Positions 50,915 to 61,796 of a stretch of 64,000 nucleotides of DNA are shown piece after piece. Location of the stretch: positions 1-64,000 of the forward strand of contig NZ_JPVO01000041.1 of the NCBI RefSeq assembly GCF_000772955.1, written 5' to 3'. Within the stretch, counting starts at the first letter, position 1. Each line of letters opens with the position of its first letter. This stretch comes from Ureibacillus sinduriensis BLB-1 = JCM 15800 (GTDB taxonomy: Bacteria > Bacillota > Bacilli > Bacillales_A > Planococcaceae). The translations under genes and the position numbers were made by a program. The notes below the pieces were generated by a model, which was given only the letters and a program-made list of their open reading frames with translations, ran no database searches and was not told the DNA's origin.

Positions 50915-52045
50915 CTAAACGCCAGGGAACCAACCAGGTGCGTTTAGGATAATTTTCCATAACGTGTCTGGTACAACTAACTCTTCTTGCTTTTCTTTAT
51001 CGATCTCAGTTACGATTTCATCTTCTTTTCCATCCGCTACTTTTTGGACCCAGTCCGGATCTATAATCAATTCACGACCCAGTGCCAATAAAGGTATACC
51101 CGTCGCAAAAGCTCTGCGCGCGTCTTCAGCACTATAAATCGAACCAACCCCAATCAATGGGACACGTCCGTTGATTTTTTCAAGTAAATACTCAATACGT
51201 GTTTTCGATAGATCCTCAACACCTCTTTTGGCAGTTGAGAAAAATTCCATTAATGAAACATGCAGATAATCTAAACCTTTGTCGGCTAAAACATCCACTA
51301 ACGCTAATGTATCCGCCATTGTAATGCCGTTTTCTTCAGGTTCTTCGGGAGAAAAGCGATGTCCAATTATGAAAGAAGCGTCACCATACTTTTCTACCAC
51401 ACTTTTCACCTTATCAACTACTGCCAATGGGAACGCCATGCGTTTTTCCAAGCTTCCACCAAAGCGGTCTTCACGCTTATTGGAATGTCCTGAGAAAAAT
51501 TGTTGTATTAAATAACCATTTGCCCCGTGAATCTCCACACCATCATACCCTGCTTCGATTGCTCGGCGGGTTGCTTCACCATATGCTTCGATAATTTCAT
51601 AGGCCTCTGCTTCTGTTAAAGGTTTCGGTATTTTCCCTTCTACTCCGTTATGAACAGCCGGCACATCGCTCGCACTGACAATTTCACCATTTGGAACCAG
51701 CTCAGGAGGAGACATTTTTCCGCCATGATAAATCTGCAGGATCGCTTTTGCCCCTTGTTCCTTAATGGCTGTTGCCACGCGCTTCATGCTTGGAATAAAT
51801 TCATCACTATAGGCAGCAAATTGTCCATGGAAACCTTGACCATTTGGCGTTACATGCGTACACGCTGTAATGACCATACTTACTCCGCTAGAACGACGGG
51901 AATAGTATTTAATCTCTGCGTCCGTCACCGTTCCATCCGCATTAGACGAATAGTGCGTCATAGGTGCCATAATAAGCCGATTTTTTAATTCAACTCCATT
52001 CGGCAATGTATGCGGTGTAAACAAGTCTTTATATTTTTCATTCAT
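50915..52045 (-). CDS. NADH:flavin oxidoreductase, Old Yellow Enzyme family
   Basis: A 376-residue TIM-barrel flavoenzyme. KNRLIMAPMTHYSSNADGTV binds FMN, GAKAILQIYHGGKM and DGVEIHGANGYLIQQFFS hold the active-site His/Asn pair, NKREDRFGGSLEKRMAFPL is the family signature, and GVGSIYSAEDA with LALGREL bind the phosphate. Reduces activated alkenes or related electrophiles using NAD(P)H. Sequence places it with the YqjM-unlike, NemA/YqiG-type branch. It leads a two-gene unit with a DUF2071 protein. AAGGGGAGG precedes the ATG. Confidence 0.93.
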   Translation of the reverse strand: MNEKYKDLFTPHTLPNGVELKNRLIMAPMTHYSSNADGTVTDAEIKYYSRRSSGVSMVITACTHVTPNGQGFHGQFAAYSDEFIPSMKRVATAIKEQGAKAILQIYHGGKMSPPELVPNGEIVSASDVPAVHNGVEGKIPKPLTEAEAYEIIEAYGEATRRAIEAGYDGVEIHGANGYLIQQFFSGHSNKREDRFGGSLEKRMAFPLAVVDKVKSVVEKYGDASFIIGHRFSPEEPEENGITMADTLALVDVLADKGLDYLHVSLMEFFSTAKRGVEDLSKTRIEYLLEKINGRVPLIGVGSIYSAEDARRAFATGIPLLALGRELIIDPDWVQKVADGKEDEIVTEIDKEKQEELVVPDTLWKIILNAPGWFPGV

Positions 52046-52528: not shown

Positions 52529-52854
52529 ATTTCAACACTTCCTTAATCGTTTTTATAAATTATACTAAACACTTTCACCAAATCTGTACTTGAGCAATCT
52601 GTTCTTGTTCTCTATAACTCCCCGTCCAATACCGTCATTCCCACCCTTCTAGAGTCGATCTACAAGTATCATCTCAATGTGACTAATTAAATTTAAACCG
52701 TACCTCTTTGGAATCTGAGAATAGTTAATTAGTATCATTACAAGTCTTATGCACTATACATTGCAAACATATTGCTTCCTTGCACTTAAGTCCTATCGAA
52801 TATGGACGGTGTCGAGAATTGTTGTATATAATTGAATGAAGTCAAATTTTGTAG
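52529..52854. other. Divergent promoter region
   Basis: About 325 bases between ynfA-like (minus) and the ketosynthase-like gene (plus). A TATAAT at 52827-52832 suits the -10 of the plus-strand unit, without a good -35. No repeat or RNA element seen. Confidence 0.4.
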
Positions 52855-52863
52855 GTGAAATAC

Positions 52864-54042
52864 TTGGACGATATCGTAATTACCGGTTATGGCATTAAAG
52901 CACCTGGTATTTTAGATAATTTAAGCTTTTTAAATGTTTTAGAAAAGGGCATATGTACACAGAGTATTTTAAGAAACCCTCAGTATCCGGAAACTCATAT
53001 TGTTGCGGGTATAATAGAGGACAGTTTCCTAGATATACGAGGAAGAAATTATAAGCGCCACTCGCGTTCTGTCAGAATGGCGGTCGCCTCTGCTTTGGAT
53101 GCTTGCGAAATGTCGAATTTGGAATATTTCAAACCACACCGTATTGCAGTAATAATGGGAACTTCTGCTGGTGCCATTCTTGAAATAGAACAGCAGTCTT
53201 CAGACTTTTTTGATTTAAAGACTACTCCCATCCAAGGTGTTTCATATGCCGATACACACACGCTTTCGGGTACGGTTGCAGAGGTAATAGGTTCGTTTGG
53301 GCCTGCCTTTACTTTAACTACCGGATGCACTGCCAGTTTGGATGCACTGTCTATCGGAAAACTCCTTCTTGAAAATGGGACCGTGGATGCGTGCATTGTA
53401 GGTGGAACCGATGCGCCGTTAGGCCAGTGGACAATCAATGGCTTTAAAAAATTAAGAGCCCTCTCAACCGAATTGTCCATTGAAAATGCTGGTGTTCCTT
53501 TTTCAACAGCCCATCGCGGATTTGTTATATCGGAGGGCGCTGGAGTTATTGTGCTGGAACGCAGACAAACAGCAGAATCACGCAGCCAGAAGATATACGG
53601 AAAAGTTGAACGGGTCATAACGAGAAATGAAGGGCAAAAACTATTAAGTTCAGATACGACCGGCAGACATATGCTTGAGGTATTCCAGGATACTATCGGG
53701 GATACTGTACCAAGCTATGTAAATAGCCAGGCGCTTGGTCTGGAAACAAACGATCACATAGAACGCTTGGTTCTGAAAGAAACATTCGGCTCGGAAGTAC
53801 CGATCACTTCAATTAAAGGAATGACTGGACATTCATTTGGTGCAATGGGGGCCATTCAAATCATTTCATCACTACTTTCAATGGAACATGGGTTCATACC
53901 TCCTACCATTAAAACAAAATGCGTTGGTTTTAATGATATACCCATTGTTCTGAAGACTAGATATCAAGCTGTGGACTCTGTATGCATCACTGCTCATGGC
54001 AGTAGCGGGAATAATGCCTGTCTACTGCTGACACATTGCTAG
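52864..54042 (+). CDS. Beta-ketoacyl synthase-like protein lacking the first active-site His
   Basis: A 392-residue thiolase-fold protein of the FabF/KS type. DDIVITGYGIKAPG opens the fold, VIMGTSAGA is the dimer strand, the nucleophile Cys155 lies in TTGCTASLDAL, and Lys318 with His323 in SIKGMTGHSFGAMGA keep the spacing of FabF. The first His, in FabF part of NAHGTSTPLND, is Gln289 here (NSQALGLETND). Such a change should impair decarboxylative condensation while leaving the acyl-Cys. No acyl carrier protein gene is near. TTG at 52864, six bases after AGGTG, is preferred to GTG at 52855. It is 12 bases upstream of a GGDEF-EAL gene. Confidence 0.85.
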   Translation: MDDIVITGYGIKAPGILDNLSFLNVLEKGICTQSILRNPQYPETHIVAGIIEDSFLDIRGRNYKRHSRSVRMAVASALDACEMSNLEYFKPHRIAVIMGTSAGAILEIEQQSSDFFDLKTTPIQGVSYADTHTLSGTVAEVIGSFGPAFTLTTGCTASLDALSIGKLLLENGTVDACIVGGTDAPLGQWTINGFKKLRALSTELSIENAGVPFSTAHRGFVISEGAGVIVLERRQTAESRSQKIYGKVERVITRNEGQKLLSSDTTGRHMLEVFQDTIGDTVPSYVNSQALGLETNDHIERLVLKETFGSEVPITSIKGMTGHSFGAMGAIQIISSLLSMEHGFIPPTIKTKCVGFNDIPIVLKTRYQAVDSVCITAHGSSGNNACLLLTHC

Positions 54043-54054
54043 GAGGCGCAATAC

Positions 54055-56442
54055 ATGTTTTTTACCTTTTTAATTTTACTATCCTGCATTCCGATAGTAG
54101 TCGGCGTGACGCTATTAATTTTATTTAAAAAATACAAGCTATCGAGAGTGCTATTTCTACTTCTCTTAATGGTGACATTTTGGCAATTGGATGTTGCCTT
54201 TTTATATTCTTATAATCTTTTAAGTGAAGAAATTATCCTCTTCTTGTTCAAGTTGCTGCGCTTTGGTTCGATTTTGATTACACCTGTATTTTTCCATGTC
54301 GGATATACAATTGTGCAAGAAATCTTGCCGGAGGAATTGCAAAAGAAATGGAAACCTTATGTAAATCGTACTACTGTCTTTTTATTCTACGGACTAGCCT
54401 TTTTTGTATATATCGTAGGATGGAGCAAAAATGGAGTTAGTAGTTTGGAGCTTATGCAAATAGGTTCCAACGAATTTTACTTTCCAGTTTACGGAAAGTT
54501 ATCTTGGACTTTCATTTTCAATATTTTAATCTTCCTGGTTAGTATGACCACCTGTTTTTTAATTAGTTTAAATGTTAAACAGAATAGCGAACGTACCTTT
54601 TTAGTTTATTTTAGTATCTTTTCAACTGTTGGTTATGCTATAGGTGGCTTAAATATGTTTCCGGCGGCAAAATTATACCCAAGTTCAATTGCGTTGCTAG
54701 TCTATGCCCTTTCCATATTAATCATTTCTAGCAGAATGCATCTAGAGATTGTGAATAATATGAACAAGAAATTAAATGAGCAGAAGAAATTCCTTTTTCA
54801 AGTAATCGATTTGAACCCGAACTATATCTATGCACGAGACAGAAATGAACGTTATACTCTGTTAAATCAATCCTATGCACAGCTGAAAGGAATCAACATC
54901 CAGGATATGGTCGGGAAAACGGATGATGAACTGCAACGAGAACCCCAACTGGAAAAAAGAATACAGGCGGGCAATCTATACGAGGTGCGGGAAAAAGTCT
55001 TTATTCGCGAAGAAGAAATCACCTCTGCTTCCGGTGAGGTCGTATGGGTTCAGACTGTCAAGGTCCCAATCAATCTGGATGAGAGCTCCGCAATACTTGC
55101 TGTCTCAACAGATATTACTGAACGGAAACAATATGAAGACGAAATCAAGTTCCAAGCCTATCATGATTCTTTAACCGGATTGCCGAATAGACGAATGTTT
55201 AATGAAGATTTGACCAGCCTCCTGGAAAGAACAAAGTCGGAAAATAGTCAGAGTGCCATTATGTTTCTAGATTTAGACCGATTCAAATACATTAATGACA
55301 CAATGGGGCATGACGTTGGAGACCTTCTATTAGTCGAAGTATCAAGACGTATTGAGAATCTGCTGAAGAAGAGGCACCATTCAGCCAAAATTTATCGCCT
55401 TGGGGGGGATGAATTTACAATTCTGCTTTCACAATATAGTGCTACCGAGAGTGAAGCCCTTGCCAAAGAATTATTGGCGCAATTTAAAACTGGCTTCATG
55501 ATTGTTGGCAGTGAGTATTTCATCACCCCGAGTATCGGTATCAGCATCTATCCACAAGATGGCGTTGATGCAAATACCCTCATAAAACATGCTGATACGG
55601 CCATGTACTATGTGAAAGAAAAAGGGAAAAATAACTATCAATTATTTACTGCGGAAATGCAGAAAAACTTCTACCGAAAGATGATGATTGAAAGCCAATT
55701 AAGAACAGCATTGGATAATAAGGAATTGGAACTATATTATCAGCCTATCATTGATTTAAAATCCAAAAACATTGTTGCAGTGGAATCTCTATTAAGGTGG
55801 AATAACGAAACTGTCGGACCTGTGTCACCTGATGAATTTATACCGGTTGCAGAAGAAACAGGAATGATTTTGCCAATCGGCCATTGGGTGCTGCAAACAG
55901 CTATCCAGCAAAATGCGAAATGGCTGAGTGAAGGTTACAAACCTTTAAAGACAAGCATCAATGTTTCAGTGAGGCAATTACTTGATCCAATGTTTGGGGA
56001 TAATGTGAAAAATGCAATAGAAAGCACTGGGATCGATGGGGACAAAATTGTACTGGAGATCACCGAGAGCATTGCAATGTATGCAGATTCGATGATAGAA
56101 AAGCTGAATGCCTTAAAGAAAATTGGCGTCACCCTCTCGATGGATGACTTTGGGACAGGTTACTCCTCCCTTAGTTACCTAAACAAGTACCCATTGGATT
56201 CACTGAAAATCGATAAATCGTTTGTTATGGGGATGCATCAAGACGAGGAGCATAAGGCCATTGTAAAAACGATTATTGCCATAGCAAATCATCTTGAATT
56301 GAGGGTGATTGCCGAAGGAATTGAAGGCCTGGAAGATGCCGACTACTTGAATGAAATGGGTTGTGATTATGGCCAAGGATATTACTTCAGCCGCCCACTT
56401 CCTGCAAAAGAATTCGAAGAAAGATGGCTGGCCTTAAAATAA
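54055..56442 (+). CDS. Membrane PAS-GGDEF-EAL cyclic-di-GMP enzyme
   Basis: A 795-residue protein. Residues 1-225 have seven or so membrane segments like the 7TM region of histidine kinases; a PAS domain follows (about 240-355, NPNYIYARDRNERYTLLNQS). The diguanylate cyclase domain has an intact RLGGDEFT near 448, but its inhibitory RxxD site is changed (HHSA). The EAL domain keeps ESLLRW near 577, DDFGTGYSSL near 697 and downstream metal residues, so both synthesis and breakdown of c-di-GMP are possible. AGGAGG lies eight bases before the ATG, and the gene follows the ketosynthase-like gene by 12 bases: one transcript. Confidence 0.95.
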   Translation: MFFTFLILLSCIPIVVGVTLLILFKKYKLSRVLFLLLLMVTFWQLDVAFLYSYNLLSEEIILFLFKLLRFGSILITPVFFHVGYTIVQEILPEELQKKWKPYVNRTTVFLFYGLAFFVYIVGWSKNGVSSLELMQIGSNEFYFPVYGKLSWTFIFNILIFLVSMTTCFLISLNVKQNSERTFLVYFSIFSTVGYAIGGLNMFPAAKLYPSSIALLVYALSILIISSRMHLEIVNNMNKKLNEQKKFLFQVIDLNPNYIYARDRNERYTLLNQSYAQLKGINIQDMVGKTDDELQREPQLEKRIQAGNLYEVREKVFIREEEITSASGEVVWVQTVKVPINLDESSAILAVSTDITERKQYEDEIKFQAYHDSLTGLPNRRMFNEDLTSLLERTKSENSQSAIMFLDLDRFKYINDTMGHDVGDLLLVEVSRRIENLLKKRHHSAKIYRLGGDEFTILLSQYSATESEALAKELLAQFKTGFMIVGSEYFITPSIGISIYPQDGVDANTLIKHADTAMYYVKEKGKNNYQLFTAEMQKNFYRKMMIESQLRTALDNKELELYYQPIIDLKSKNIVAVESLLRWNNETVGPVSPDEFIPVAEETGMILPIGHWVLQTAIQQNAKWLSEGYKPLKTSINVSVRQLLDPMFGDNVKNAIESTGIDGDKIVLEITESIAMYADSMIEKLNALKKIGVTLSMDDFGTGYSSLSYLNKYPLDSLKIDKSFVMGMHQDEEHKAIVKTIIAIANHLELRVIAEGIEGLEDADYLNEMGCDYGQGYYFSRPLPAKEFEERWLALK

Positions 56443-56497
56443 ATAACTATTTTTGTTAGTATATTTTGCAAATTAGAATTTTATAAACAAGCAAATA

Positions 56498-56536
56498 AGG
56501 CATTCAGTATGAAAACGTACTGAATGCCTTTCATTT
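56498..56536 (+). terminator. Terminator of the KS/GGDEF-EAL unit
   Basis: Perfect stem AGGCATTCAGTA / TACTGAATGCCT followed by TTCATTTTTT. Confidence 0.85.
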
Positions 56537-61112: not shown

Positions 61113-61796
61113 ATGAAGATAAATAAAGTTACCTTATATGCCCATGATTTGGAGGGCTTGGAAATTTTCTATTGCAAGAAACTCGGGTTTCAAAAGCTCG
61201 AAATGACTTCAACAGGTTTGGAAATCAAGATTGGGGAGAGTATACTAGCATTTGAAATGGCAGTTCCAAACGAACAAAAGCAATACCATTTTGCATTCAA
61301 CATCCCAAGCAATCTTTTTGAGAAAGCAAAAGAATGGATCCAGTGCCACACCTTACTGTTAAAGGACCAAGGTCGGAATTTTGCATATTTTGAAAACTTC
61401 GATGCCCATTCCGTATATTTTTATGATCCTGAAGGAAATGTCGTTGAATTGATCGCCCGCCACTCCGCTAACCCTGCAGCTCATACTGACCGATTTACGG
61501 CAAGAGAGATACTTAGTATCGGCGAGATTAATTTAACAACTGAAGATCTGTTGGTAGTGGGACAAAAATTGGTTTCCCTCGGGATTCCCTTACAAAATGG
61601 AGCTGAGCTGGATGAAACTTCACTTAATTTTATGGGGGAACCGAACAGCAATGCCTACATCTTACTAGGGCCCGCAAAGCGCAATTGGTATTTTTCCACT
61701 AAGGATGCTGTTGTGAGTCGGATTAATATTATTGTGAATGGTCATCTTGAGCTTTCGGTTGATAAAAATGGCCGTTTCCATTACAAAAATAGTTAA
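61113..61796 (+). CDS. VOC family protein, catechol-dioxygenase-like
   Basis: A 227-residue protein of two glyoxalase-fold modules. The first (1-120) has KVTLYAHDLEGLEIFYCKKL and SVYFYDPEGNVVELIARH with the metal-ligand pattern of VOC enzymes; the second (130-227) is degenerate, with IGEINLTTEDLLVVGQKLVS. Length is shorter than CatE (about 280). Possibly a ring-cleavage relative or a metal-binding detoxifier; substrate unknown. GGGAGTG precedes the ATG. Confidence 0.8.
   Translation: MKINKVTLYAHDLEGLEIFYCKKLGFQKLEMTSTGLEIKIGESILAFEMAVPNEQKQYHFAFNIPSNLFEKAKEWIQCHTLLLKDQGRNFAYFENFDAHSVYFYDPEGNVVELIARHSANPAAHTDRFTAREILSIGEINLTTEDLLVVGQKLVSLGIPLQNGAELDETSLNFMGEPNSNAYILLGPAKRNWYFSTKDAVVSRINIIVNGHLELSVDKNGRFHYKNS

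Follow-up and report, generated by a model that had tools for sequence, protein, structure and literature searches.

A FabF-type ketosynthase with an altered active site encoded next to signal-transducing proteins in Bacilli: a putative synthase-receptor cassette

A ketosynthase and a predicted receptor encoded side by side

The window analyzed here (64,000 nucleotides of Ureibacillus sinduriensis BLB-1 = JCM 15800, contig NZ_JPVO01000041.1) contains, on its forward strand, a gene for a ketosynthase (KS)-like protein of 392 amino acids (52864..54042) and, starting 12 bp 3' of it on the same strand, a gene for a 795-amino-acid protein (54055..56442) in which a predicted seven-transmembrane (7TM) domain (about residues 1-230) is followed by PAS, GGDEF and EAL domains, the arrangement already given in the initial annotation of this DNA. 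The KS contains both Pfam ketoacyl-synthase domains (PF00109 and PF02801), is of the FabF type, belongs to a distinct NSQALG/TxHG clade and has the actinorhodin KS (1tqy, chain A) as its closest relative of solved structure by sequence. It matches 20 NCBIfam models, none of them (0/20) at the cut-off; for the FabF equivalog, the score is 179 bits against a cut-off of 493.75. In the second protein, Pfam recognizes PAS_4, GGDEF and EAL, and a simple hydropathy count yields seven hydrophobic segments within the first 260 residues.

We examined 51 loci that encode a KS of the same altered type, from ten families that all belong to the class of the window, Bacilli. Among 200 genomes of the window's family, 19 encode an intact KS (the window's own, 17 at 69-81% identity and one at 37%) and G115 contains a decayed copy; the KS was found in 11 of 295 genomes of a second family, in 23 of 398 genomes of a set covering the class, and in 7 of 11, 2 of 14, 1 of 17, 5 of 24 and 2 of 4 genomes of smaller groups. 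A profile search across the phylum placed 2 of 398 genomes (the window's own and G478) above ordinary KSs; the next score, 205.5 bits, belongs to a KS of the HGT type, and the six motifs inspected at lower-scoring loci were all HGT or HAT. These sets overlap and differ in their E-value limits, the window's phylum is the only one searched as a whole, and the phylum, second-family and class searches, which scored only a few best candidates per genome, may have missed members, so the KS type may extend beyond Bacilli. In a tree of 54 proteins, 45 members are separated from nine ordinary KSs with a support of 100/100. Four named matches from outside the class (L059-L062) were rejected as relatives, given their ordinary HGT motif.

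When a gene is counted as linked if it is the next one downstream, on the same strand and within 100 bp, a signal transducer is linked to the KS in 39 of the 51 loci, compared with 4 of the 771 remaining genes at these loci (some of these partners had themselves gone into the kinase and GGDEF profiles used for the count). The 39 transducers comprise 24 proteins of the 7TM-PAS-GGDEF-EAL architecture, nine 7TM-histidine kinases (7TM-HK) and six soluble histidine kinases, and each of the ten families that have the KS includes at least one linked member. In the window's family, a GGDEF-EAL gene comes next in all 20 intact orthologues of at least 69% identity that were examined, the window included, with a spacing of exactly 12 bp in 15 of these 20 loci; the remaining orthologue (37% identity) is followed by a 7TM-HK. 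Psychrobacillus insolitus DSM 5 is among the strains that carry the pair. Apart from the pair itself, window genes that encode at least 100 amino acids each recur in at most 11 of the 50 other loci. The kinase match in G959 is weak (HATPase only, just above the cut-off), and there a response regulator gene precedes the genes for the KS and the 7TM-HK. Random gene order in relatives, which the initial annotation had put forward as grounds for refuting a functional coupling, is thus not what we find; chance linkage is rejected by the neighbor control, and the coupling of the KS with receptors is real, old and specific.

Seven of the 12 unlinked members belong to one clade, in which the KS gene follows a flavin oxidoreductase gene and faces a convergent gene for an alpha/beta-hydrolase with fused regions that weakly match winged-helix or BTAD-like domains and TPRs (L110 7763-9373, with counterparts in L123 and L125-L129). 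Six of these proteins were scanned and give DNA-binding or BTAD plus TPR matches that fall under the Pfam cut-offs; the seventh was found by tblastn at a contig end. The hydrolase-type protein is possibly a one-component receptor-regulator. The oxidoreductase (PF00724, dependent on flavin mononucleotide, FMN) is encoded immediately 5' of the KS gene and in the same orientation in 7/7 loci of this clade (L110 10730-11824, L123, L125-L129).

The active site of the ketosynthase

In an alignment with Escherichia coli FabF (sequence from the genome record), Cys155, Gln289, Lys318 and His323 of the window KS correspond to Cys163, His303, Lys335 and His340, respectively, which bears out the earlier reading that Cys, Lys and the second His are in place and that Gln stands where FabF has the His of its HGT motif. 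Residues were counted in 46 aligned members and, for Cys155, Gln289 and His378, in five later members read by motif (51 altogether). Cys155 (codon 53326..53328, forward strand), at the position of the FabF nucleophile, is Cys in 51/51; Gln289 (53728..53730, forward) is Gln in 50 of the 51 and Leu in L124; and His323 (53830..53832, forward) is found in 44 of the 46 aligned members, with Asn in L049 and Gln in L150. In addition, there is an invariant new histidine that went unmentioned in the initial annotation, His378 (53995..53997, forward), which is present in 51/51 and corresponds to FabF Phe398 and, in most profiles, to Cys379 of the thiolase AtoB. Lys318, Gln332 (FabF Glu349) and Thr376 (FabF Asn396) are each found in 46/46 aligned members. 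Where the family has changed, nine ordinary KSs carry His, Glu, Asn, and Phe or Leu, and all nine keep the His of the HGT motif. The position of the FabF gating residue Phe400 is occupied by Ser or Tyr in 41 of the 46 aligned members; because the FabF loop 399-402 that includes it adjoins the active site (PMC7138838) and His378 corresponds to Phe398, His378 lies just before the gating loop. One member, L150 (9137-10558), is a 473-amino-acid frame in which the second catalytic His is replaced by Gln (GQP), and it is paired with a 7TM-HK.

The basic positions that face the acyl carrier protein (ACP) are largely retained: FabF Arg68 is Lys or Arg in 39/46 members, Lys69 is Lys or Arg in at least 35/46, and Arg206 is Arg or Lys in 40/46; the loop-2 acid is Asp or Glu in 45/46. 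Ratios of non-synonymous to synonymous substitution rates (dN/dS) range from 0.08 to 0.22 in the KS gene and from 0.05 to 0.21 in its partner (five pairs each; some dS values are high and probably saturated), and both genes are under purifying selection. The active site of the KS looks rewired rather than decayed.

The Cys-His-His set of FabF (Cys163, His303, His340) is not that of the family, the decarboxylation His being replaced in all 51 members (Gln in 50, Leu in one), so that ordinary malonyl-dependent extension is unlikely, as initially supposed. One could still imagine a specialized but ordinary elongating KS whose linkage to signaling genes would reflect no more than control of lipid synthesis by the signal, given the FabF-type sequence, the retained Cys and second His, and FabH-type enzymes that condense with another residue set (PMC4807248). 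Against the missing His, the replacement of Phe400 in most members and ten scanned neighbors of the window KS that include no fab gene, we regard this as quite improbable.

Two other protein classes can be compared. In chain-length factors, the active-site Cys is replaced by Gln and the partner KS is encoded next door; this assignment is rejected, as the Cys is invariant here and the only further KS match in the genome is an ordinary FabF with the HGT motif, on another contig. The loss of the HGT-motif His with retention of the Cys, as seen in this family, is the pattern by which KS0s, or non-elongating KSs, are recognized (PMC4661987); KS0s, however, are domains of assembly lines, and the window KS is no such domain.

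A profile alignment with four E. coli thiolases, made with hhalign in local mode (global mode was uninformative), places His378 on AtoB Cys379 and His323 on the His of the GHP motif, with an E-value of 5e-6 for the family against the thiolase profile and of 1e-6 once ordinary KSs are added. Thiolases employ a Cys nucleophile, the His of GHP and, as the acid/base, the Cys of CxG, which is the AtoB Cys379 position. Ordinary KSs give the matching register, with Phe398 on Cys379, and three of the four subclade profiles reproduce it. The likeness to AtoB, the biosynthetic thiolase, consists in the alignment of His378 to Cys379, T-x-H as against T-x-C, and the GH motif, whereas the sequence is otherwise of the β-ketoacyl-ACP synthase II (KAS II) type and the resemblance is remote; with His378 rather than Cys at the CxG position, the KS falls outside the thiolases proper. 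The comparison is to be taken as a suggestion of how the enzyme may work.

Predicted receptors and their outputs

A single 7TM domain family carries either GGDEF-EAL or histidine kinase outputs, depending on the lineage. Pfam gave no match below E 0.02 for any of 17 members of this domain family; the 7TM partners in the relatives contain 5 to 7 hydrophobic segments by the same simple count. Trp43 and Arg69 are invariant in 16 diverse domains, and Arg69, which when read by eye lies in the third segment toward the outside, is a candidate ligand contact. The transition between GGDEF-EAL and kinase outputs requires two to three changes on the trees, of which well-supported branches force only one, so that repeated output swapping appears likely.

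In all 24 GGDEF-EAL partners, the PAS region and the GGDEF and EAL columns could be aligned, and every EAL catalytic position checked (the residue set expected of an active c-di-GMP phosphodiesterase) is kept in 24/24. The GGDEF motif itself is present in 22 of the 24, including the window protein, and reads SGDEF in L032 and L148; the former (L032 6878-9274, reverse strand) is the partner of the window's nearest KS relative. Cyclase activity may accordingly be dispensable in this partner family. Since the EAL set is intact throughout and GGDEF is altered in two partners, one of them in the nearest relative, hydrolysis of cyclic diguanylate (c-di-GMP) is the likely output in the window; with its own GGDEF intact, the window protein could conceivably synthesize c-di-GMP as well.

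In one subclade the partners are soluble kinases, which lack hydrophobic segments in five of six cases; the sixth has one, its start probably having been called too far upstream. The N-terminal regions of about 165 amino acids in these kinases (L151-L154, L156, L157) did not convincingly match any Pfam family in the three that were scanned. As the 7TM domain is also found on kinases and this subclade has soluble ones, the conserved link is that between KS and receptor, with c-di-GMP as one output. Accordingly, of the initial proposal that an acyl-derived signal feeds into c-di-GMP, the coupling stands, but c-di-GMP is not its essence, because both the KS clade and the 7TM domain are paired with kinases in other genera.

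The soluble kinases also bear on the possibility that the KS transfers acyl groups without extending them and so forms a membrane lipid or a lipid tag, in which case the 7TM protein would monitor the resulting change of the membrane. A 7TM receptor would be well placed where such a lipid would be; the absence of hydrophobic segments from most kinases of that subclade fits poorly, however, and no lipid gene among the window neighbors recurs widely with the pair, so we consider this reading unlikely.

Co-inheritance and decay

In a set of 80 genomes, 32 with and 48 without the KS, the 7TM domain was found in 17/32 of the former and 3/48 of the latter. The 15 KS-positive genomes without it comprise eight of group f2 (with no downstream transducer) and seven of group f148, and 13 of the 15 have another partner: the convergent regulator in seven of the eight f2 genomes and soluble kinases in six of the seven f148 genomes. 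Path distances of KS and 7TM domain are correlated (r 0.94, for 29 of 33 pairs), and none of 2000 permutations gave a value as high.

Among the 200 genomes searched for both genes, 19 have both, G158 and G163 have the receptor with a remnant of the KS, and G115 has remnants of both (decayed KS copies are seen at L106 10105-10305, L107 10364-10552 and L050 9508-10408). The receptor frame is open beside the decayed KS in G163 and G158, where receptors outlive the KS, and both genes are decayed in G115. These three genomes lend some color to the view that the KS is merely a decayed FabF copy next to the receptor by chance. For the main set, this view is refuted and its probability is negligible: linkage far exceeds that of control genes, dN/dS is well below 1 in five pairs, and key residues are invariant.

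Kinases of the same 7TM-HK family also occur with no KS within the surrounding 20 kb (L192, L193, L194, L195, L199), among them a second copy in G1219 and a split-frame copy in G1289.

Other features of the locus

The KS start at 52864 is TTG, preceded by AGGTG at 52853-52857; an alternative start at 52855 shares the stop at 54042 (forward strand), and 52864 is preferred because the first start codon of several orthologues falls at that residue. An AGGAGG ribosome-binding site read from the sequence (54041..54046, forward) overlaps the KS stop codon, a layout shared by 6/7 named orthologues. Promoter-like hexamers (TGGACG-18-TATAAT, 52803..52832, forward; 10/12 matches in a consensus scan) lie 31 bp before the KS start, but they are weak, with 13 such sites in the region against a mean of 13.3 in its shuffles. 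A terminator-like hairpin of 15 pairs follows the second gene (56497..56530, forward), and none was found when looked for between the two genes.

Among ten neighboring window proteins scanned, none is an ACP, FabG or FabD. The initial statement that ACP, reductase and malonyl transferase are missing nearby agrees with this for ACP and FabD but is not strictly right for reductases, since an FMN oxidoreductase (PF00724) is encoded at 50915-52045 on the reverse strand. It is about 30% identical to the oxidoreductases of the unlinked clade described above, and its nearness to the KS may be coincidence. Neither protein of the pair matches the PADLOC collection of defense systems, and a defense-system reading was dropped. 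Farther along the window, 61113-61796 (forward) encodes a glyoxalase-type protein with a toxoflavin-degrading-enzyme domain (PF18711).

A putative synthase-receptor cassette

The reading that we tentatively favor, and to which we give somewhat less than an even chance, is that of a two-gene cassette in which the KS, without decarboxylating malonyl groups, would produce a signal derived from an acyl chain and the adjoining receptor would sense it. It builds on direct observations, namely the clade, the residue changes, the linkage, the differing outputs on one 7TM domain and the co-inheritance. From these we infer that Cys155 would be loaded with an acyl group from acyl-ACP or acyl-coenzyme A and that the KS, devoid of the His-His pair that decarboxylates malonyl-ACP, would rely on His378, which takes the place of the thiolase acid/base, together with His323 and Gln289, either to condense substrates without decarboxylation or to pass the acyl group to some other acceptor. 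The product would be a small acyl-derived molecule, acting between or within cells, and would be sensed by a 7TM receptor in most lineages and elsewhere by a soluble kinase domain or perhaps by the hydrolase-type regulator. The predicted output is c-di-GMP turnover, as in the window with its intact EAL residues, a phosphorelay, or transcription.

Acyl loading combined with a different second-step chemistry seems most likely because the KS keeps its nucleophile, the loop-2 acid and most residues that face the ACP, while the decarboxylation His is changed to Gln and His378 is gained. By the same token, a changed enzyme is likelier than a pseudo-enzyme, since the Cys never varies and the loss of one His goes together with an invariant new one, at the thiolase acid/base position in most profiles; we therefore do not favor the initial suggestion that the KS binds rather than reacts. 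The pairing of the KS with a receptor of varying output makes an autoinducer synthase the closest resemblance.

A different arrangement, in which the KS is a sensor subunit that binds or is acylated by acyl-ACP, touches the partner and so reports the state of fatty acid synthesis, has several points to recommend it: the tight pairing with near-overlapping or overlapping genes, the lost decarboxylation His, the largely retained ACP-facing positions and, as a precedent, the binding of RpfF itself by its receptor RpfR (PMC6361424). Nevertheless, the input domains of the partners look unrelated (7TM, soluble and helical-looking, hydrolase-type) and offer no obvious common contact surface, three genomes have the KS gene apart from that of the receptor (G1285, G1286 and G1290, where a 7TM-HK is present elsewhere in the genome), and the invariant or nearly invariant changes Gln289, Gln332 and His378 suggest altered chemistry rather than loss. 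On balance, the sensor subunit appears rather unlikely.

Several observations weigh against the synthase-receptor cassette as well. Receptor domains of different folds would need to recognize related ligands, and the soluble partners of one subclade suit an internal signal equally with an exported one. Neither an exporter nor a modifying enzyme from around the pair in the window recurs widely with it, although an oxidoreductase does in one clade. A directly downstream transducer is lacking in 12/51 members; by kinase, GGDEF and 7TM profiles, there is no adjoining transducer in G728, G953, G1285, G1286 and G1290, and in G728 and G953 these profiles recognize no neighbor at all. The three KS-negative genomes with the receptor belong to one genus, and the co-inheritance, including the r of 0.94, partly reflects species descent. 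The thiolase register is a sequence-profile result, Gln289 is not placed on the Asn of the thiolase NEAF motif, and the profile of the window's own GGDEF-EAL subclade alone gives another C-terminal register. Finally, two members have Asn or Gln in place of His323, and one has Leu in place of Gln289.

The cell signaling known from Gram-positive bacteria is mostly peptide-based. It is possible, though doubtful, that the cassette amounts to a new autoinducer-type class in Gram-positive Bacilli, in which a thiolase-like KS would make a lipophilic acyl signal by non-decarboxylative condensation and the 7TM domain, fused to c-di-GMP enzymes or histidine kinases depending on the lineage, would sense it. 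If so, a pair found in ten families of one class would bring to the known repertoire a signal of lipid type, a receptor domain family not described before and a novel active site for condensing enzymes, and the input of at least one c-di-GMP enzyme family in Lysinibacillus, Ureibacillus and Psychrobacillus would be explained. The initial remark that no system of this kind was known agrees with our literature searches aimed at a KS-receptor system, which found no description of one.

Comparison with known systems

The KS shares with FabF (KAS II) the sequence family, Cys163, Lys335, His340 and most ACP-facing basic positions, and differs from it in His303 to Gln, Glu349 to Gln, Phe398 to His and Asn396 to Thr and, in most members, Phe400 to Ser or Tyr. 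In the CqsA/CqsS, LqsA/LqsS and PhcB/PhcS systems, the enzyme for a small lipophilic signal is encoded beside a histidine kinase with multiple transmembrane segments; the enzymes, however, belong to other families and none is known to be a KS.

RpfR has the layout PAS-GGDEF-EAL and is not known to carry a 7TM domain, and RpfF is of the crotonase type, not a ketosynthase. RpfF and RpfR, an acyl-chain enzyme and a PAS-type receptor that affects c-di-GMP, bind each other (PMC6361424). This system, which in Burkholderia and relatives serves the Burkholderia diffusible signal factor (BDSF), resembles the window pair in that an acyl-chain enzyme works with a PAS-type receptor affecting c-di-GMP, and a PAS-GGDEF-EAL receptor is encoded with the synthase-like gene in 24/51 of our loci; unlike RpfF, the window enzyme has KS domains, and the output of the KS systems varies between lineages.

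The receptor for the product of PpyS is PluR, a LuxR solo. PpyS, the photopyrone synthase of Photorhabdus, is a KS that makes a signal by head-to-head condensation (PMC4578411). It differs in being of the FabH/OleA type, with a Cys-His-Asn set and a base, Glu, that the other subunit supplies, and in its LuxR-type receptor. The receptor of the PqsBC system is a transcription factor. PqsBC itself is a condensing enzyme with a changed active site that makes a quinolone signal (PMC4807248). It differs in being a FabH-like heterodimer with a Cys-His dyad. To our knowledge, none of RpfF/RpfR, PpyS and PqsBC has an enzyme or receptor of the window type; they are Gram-negative parallels for each half of the proposed cassette.

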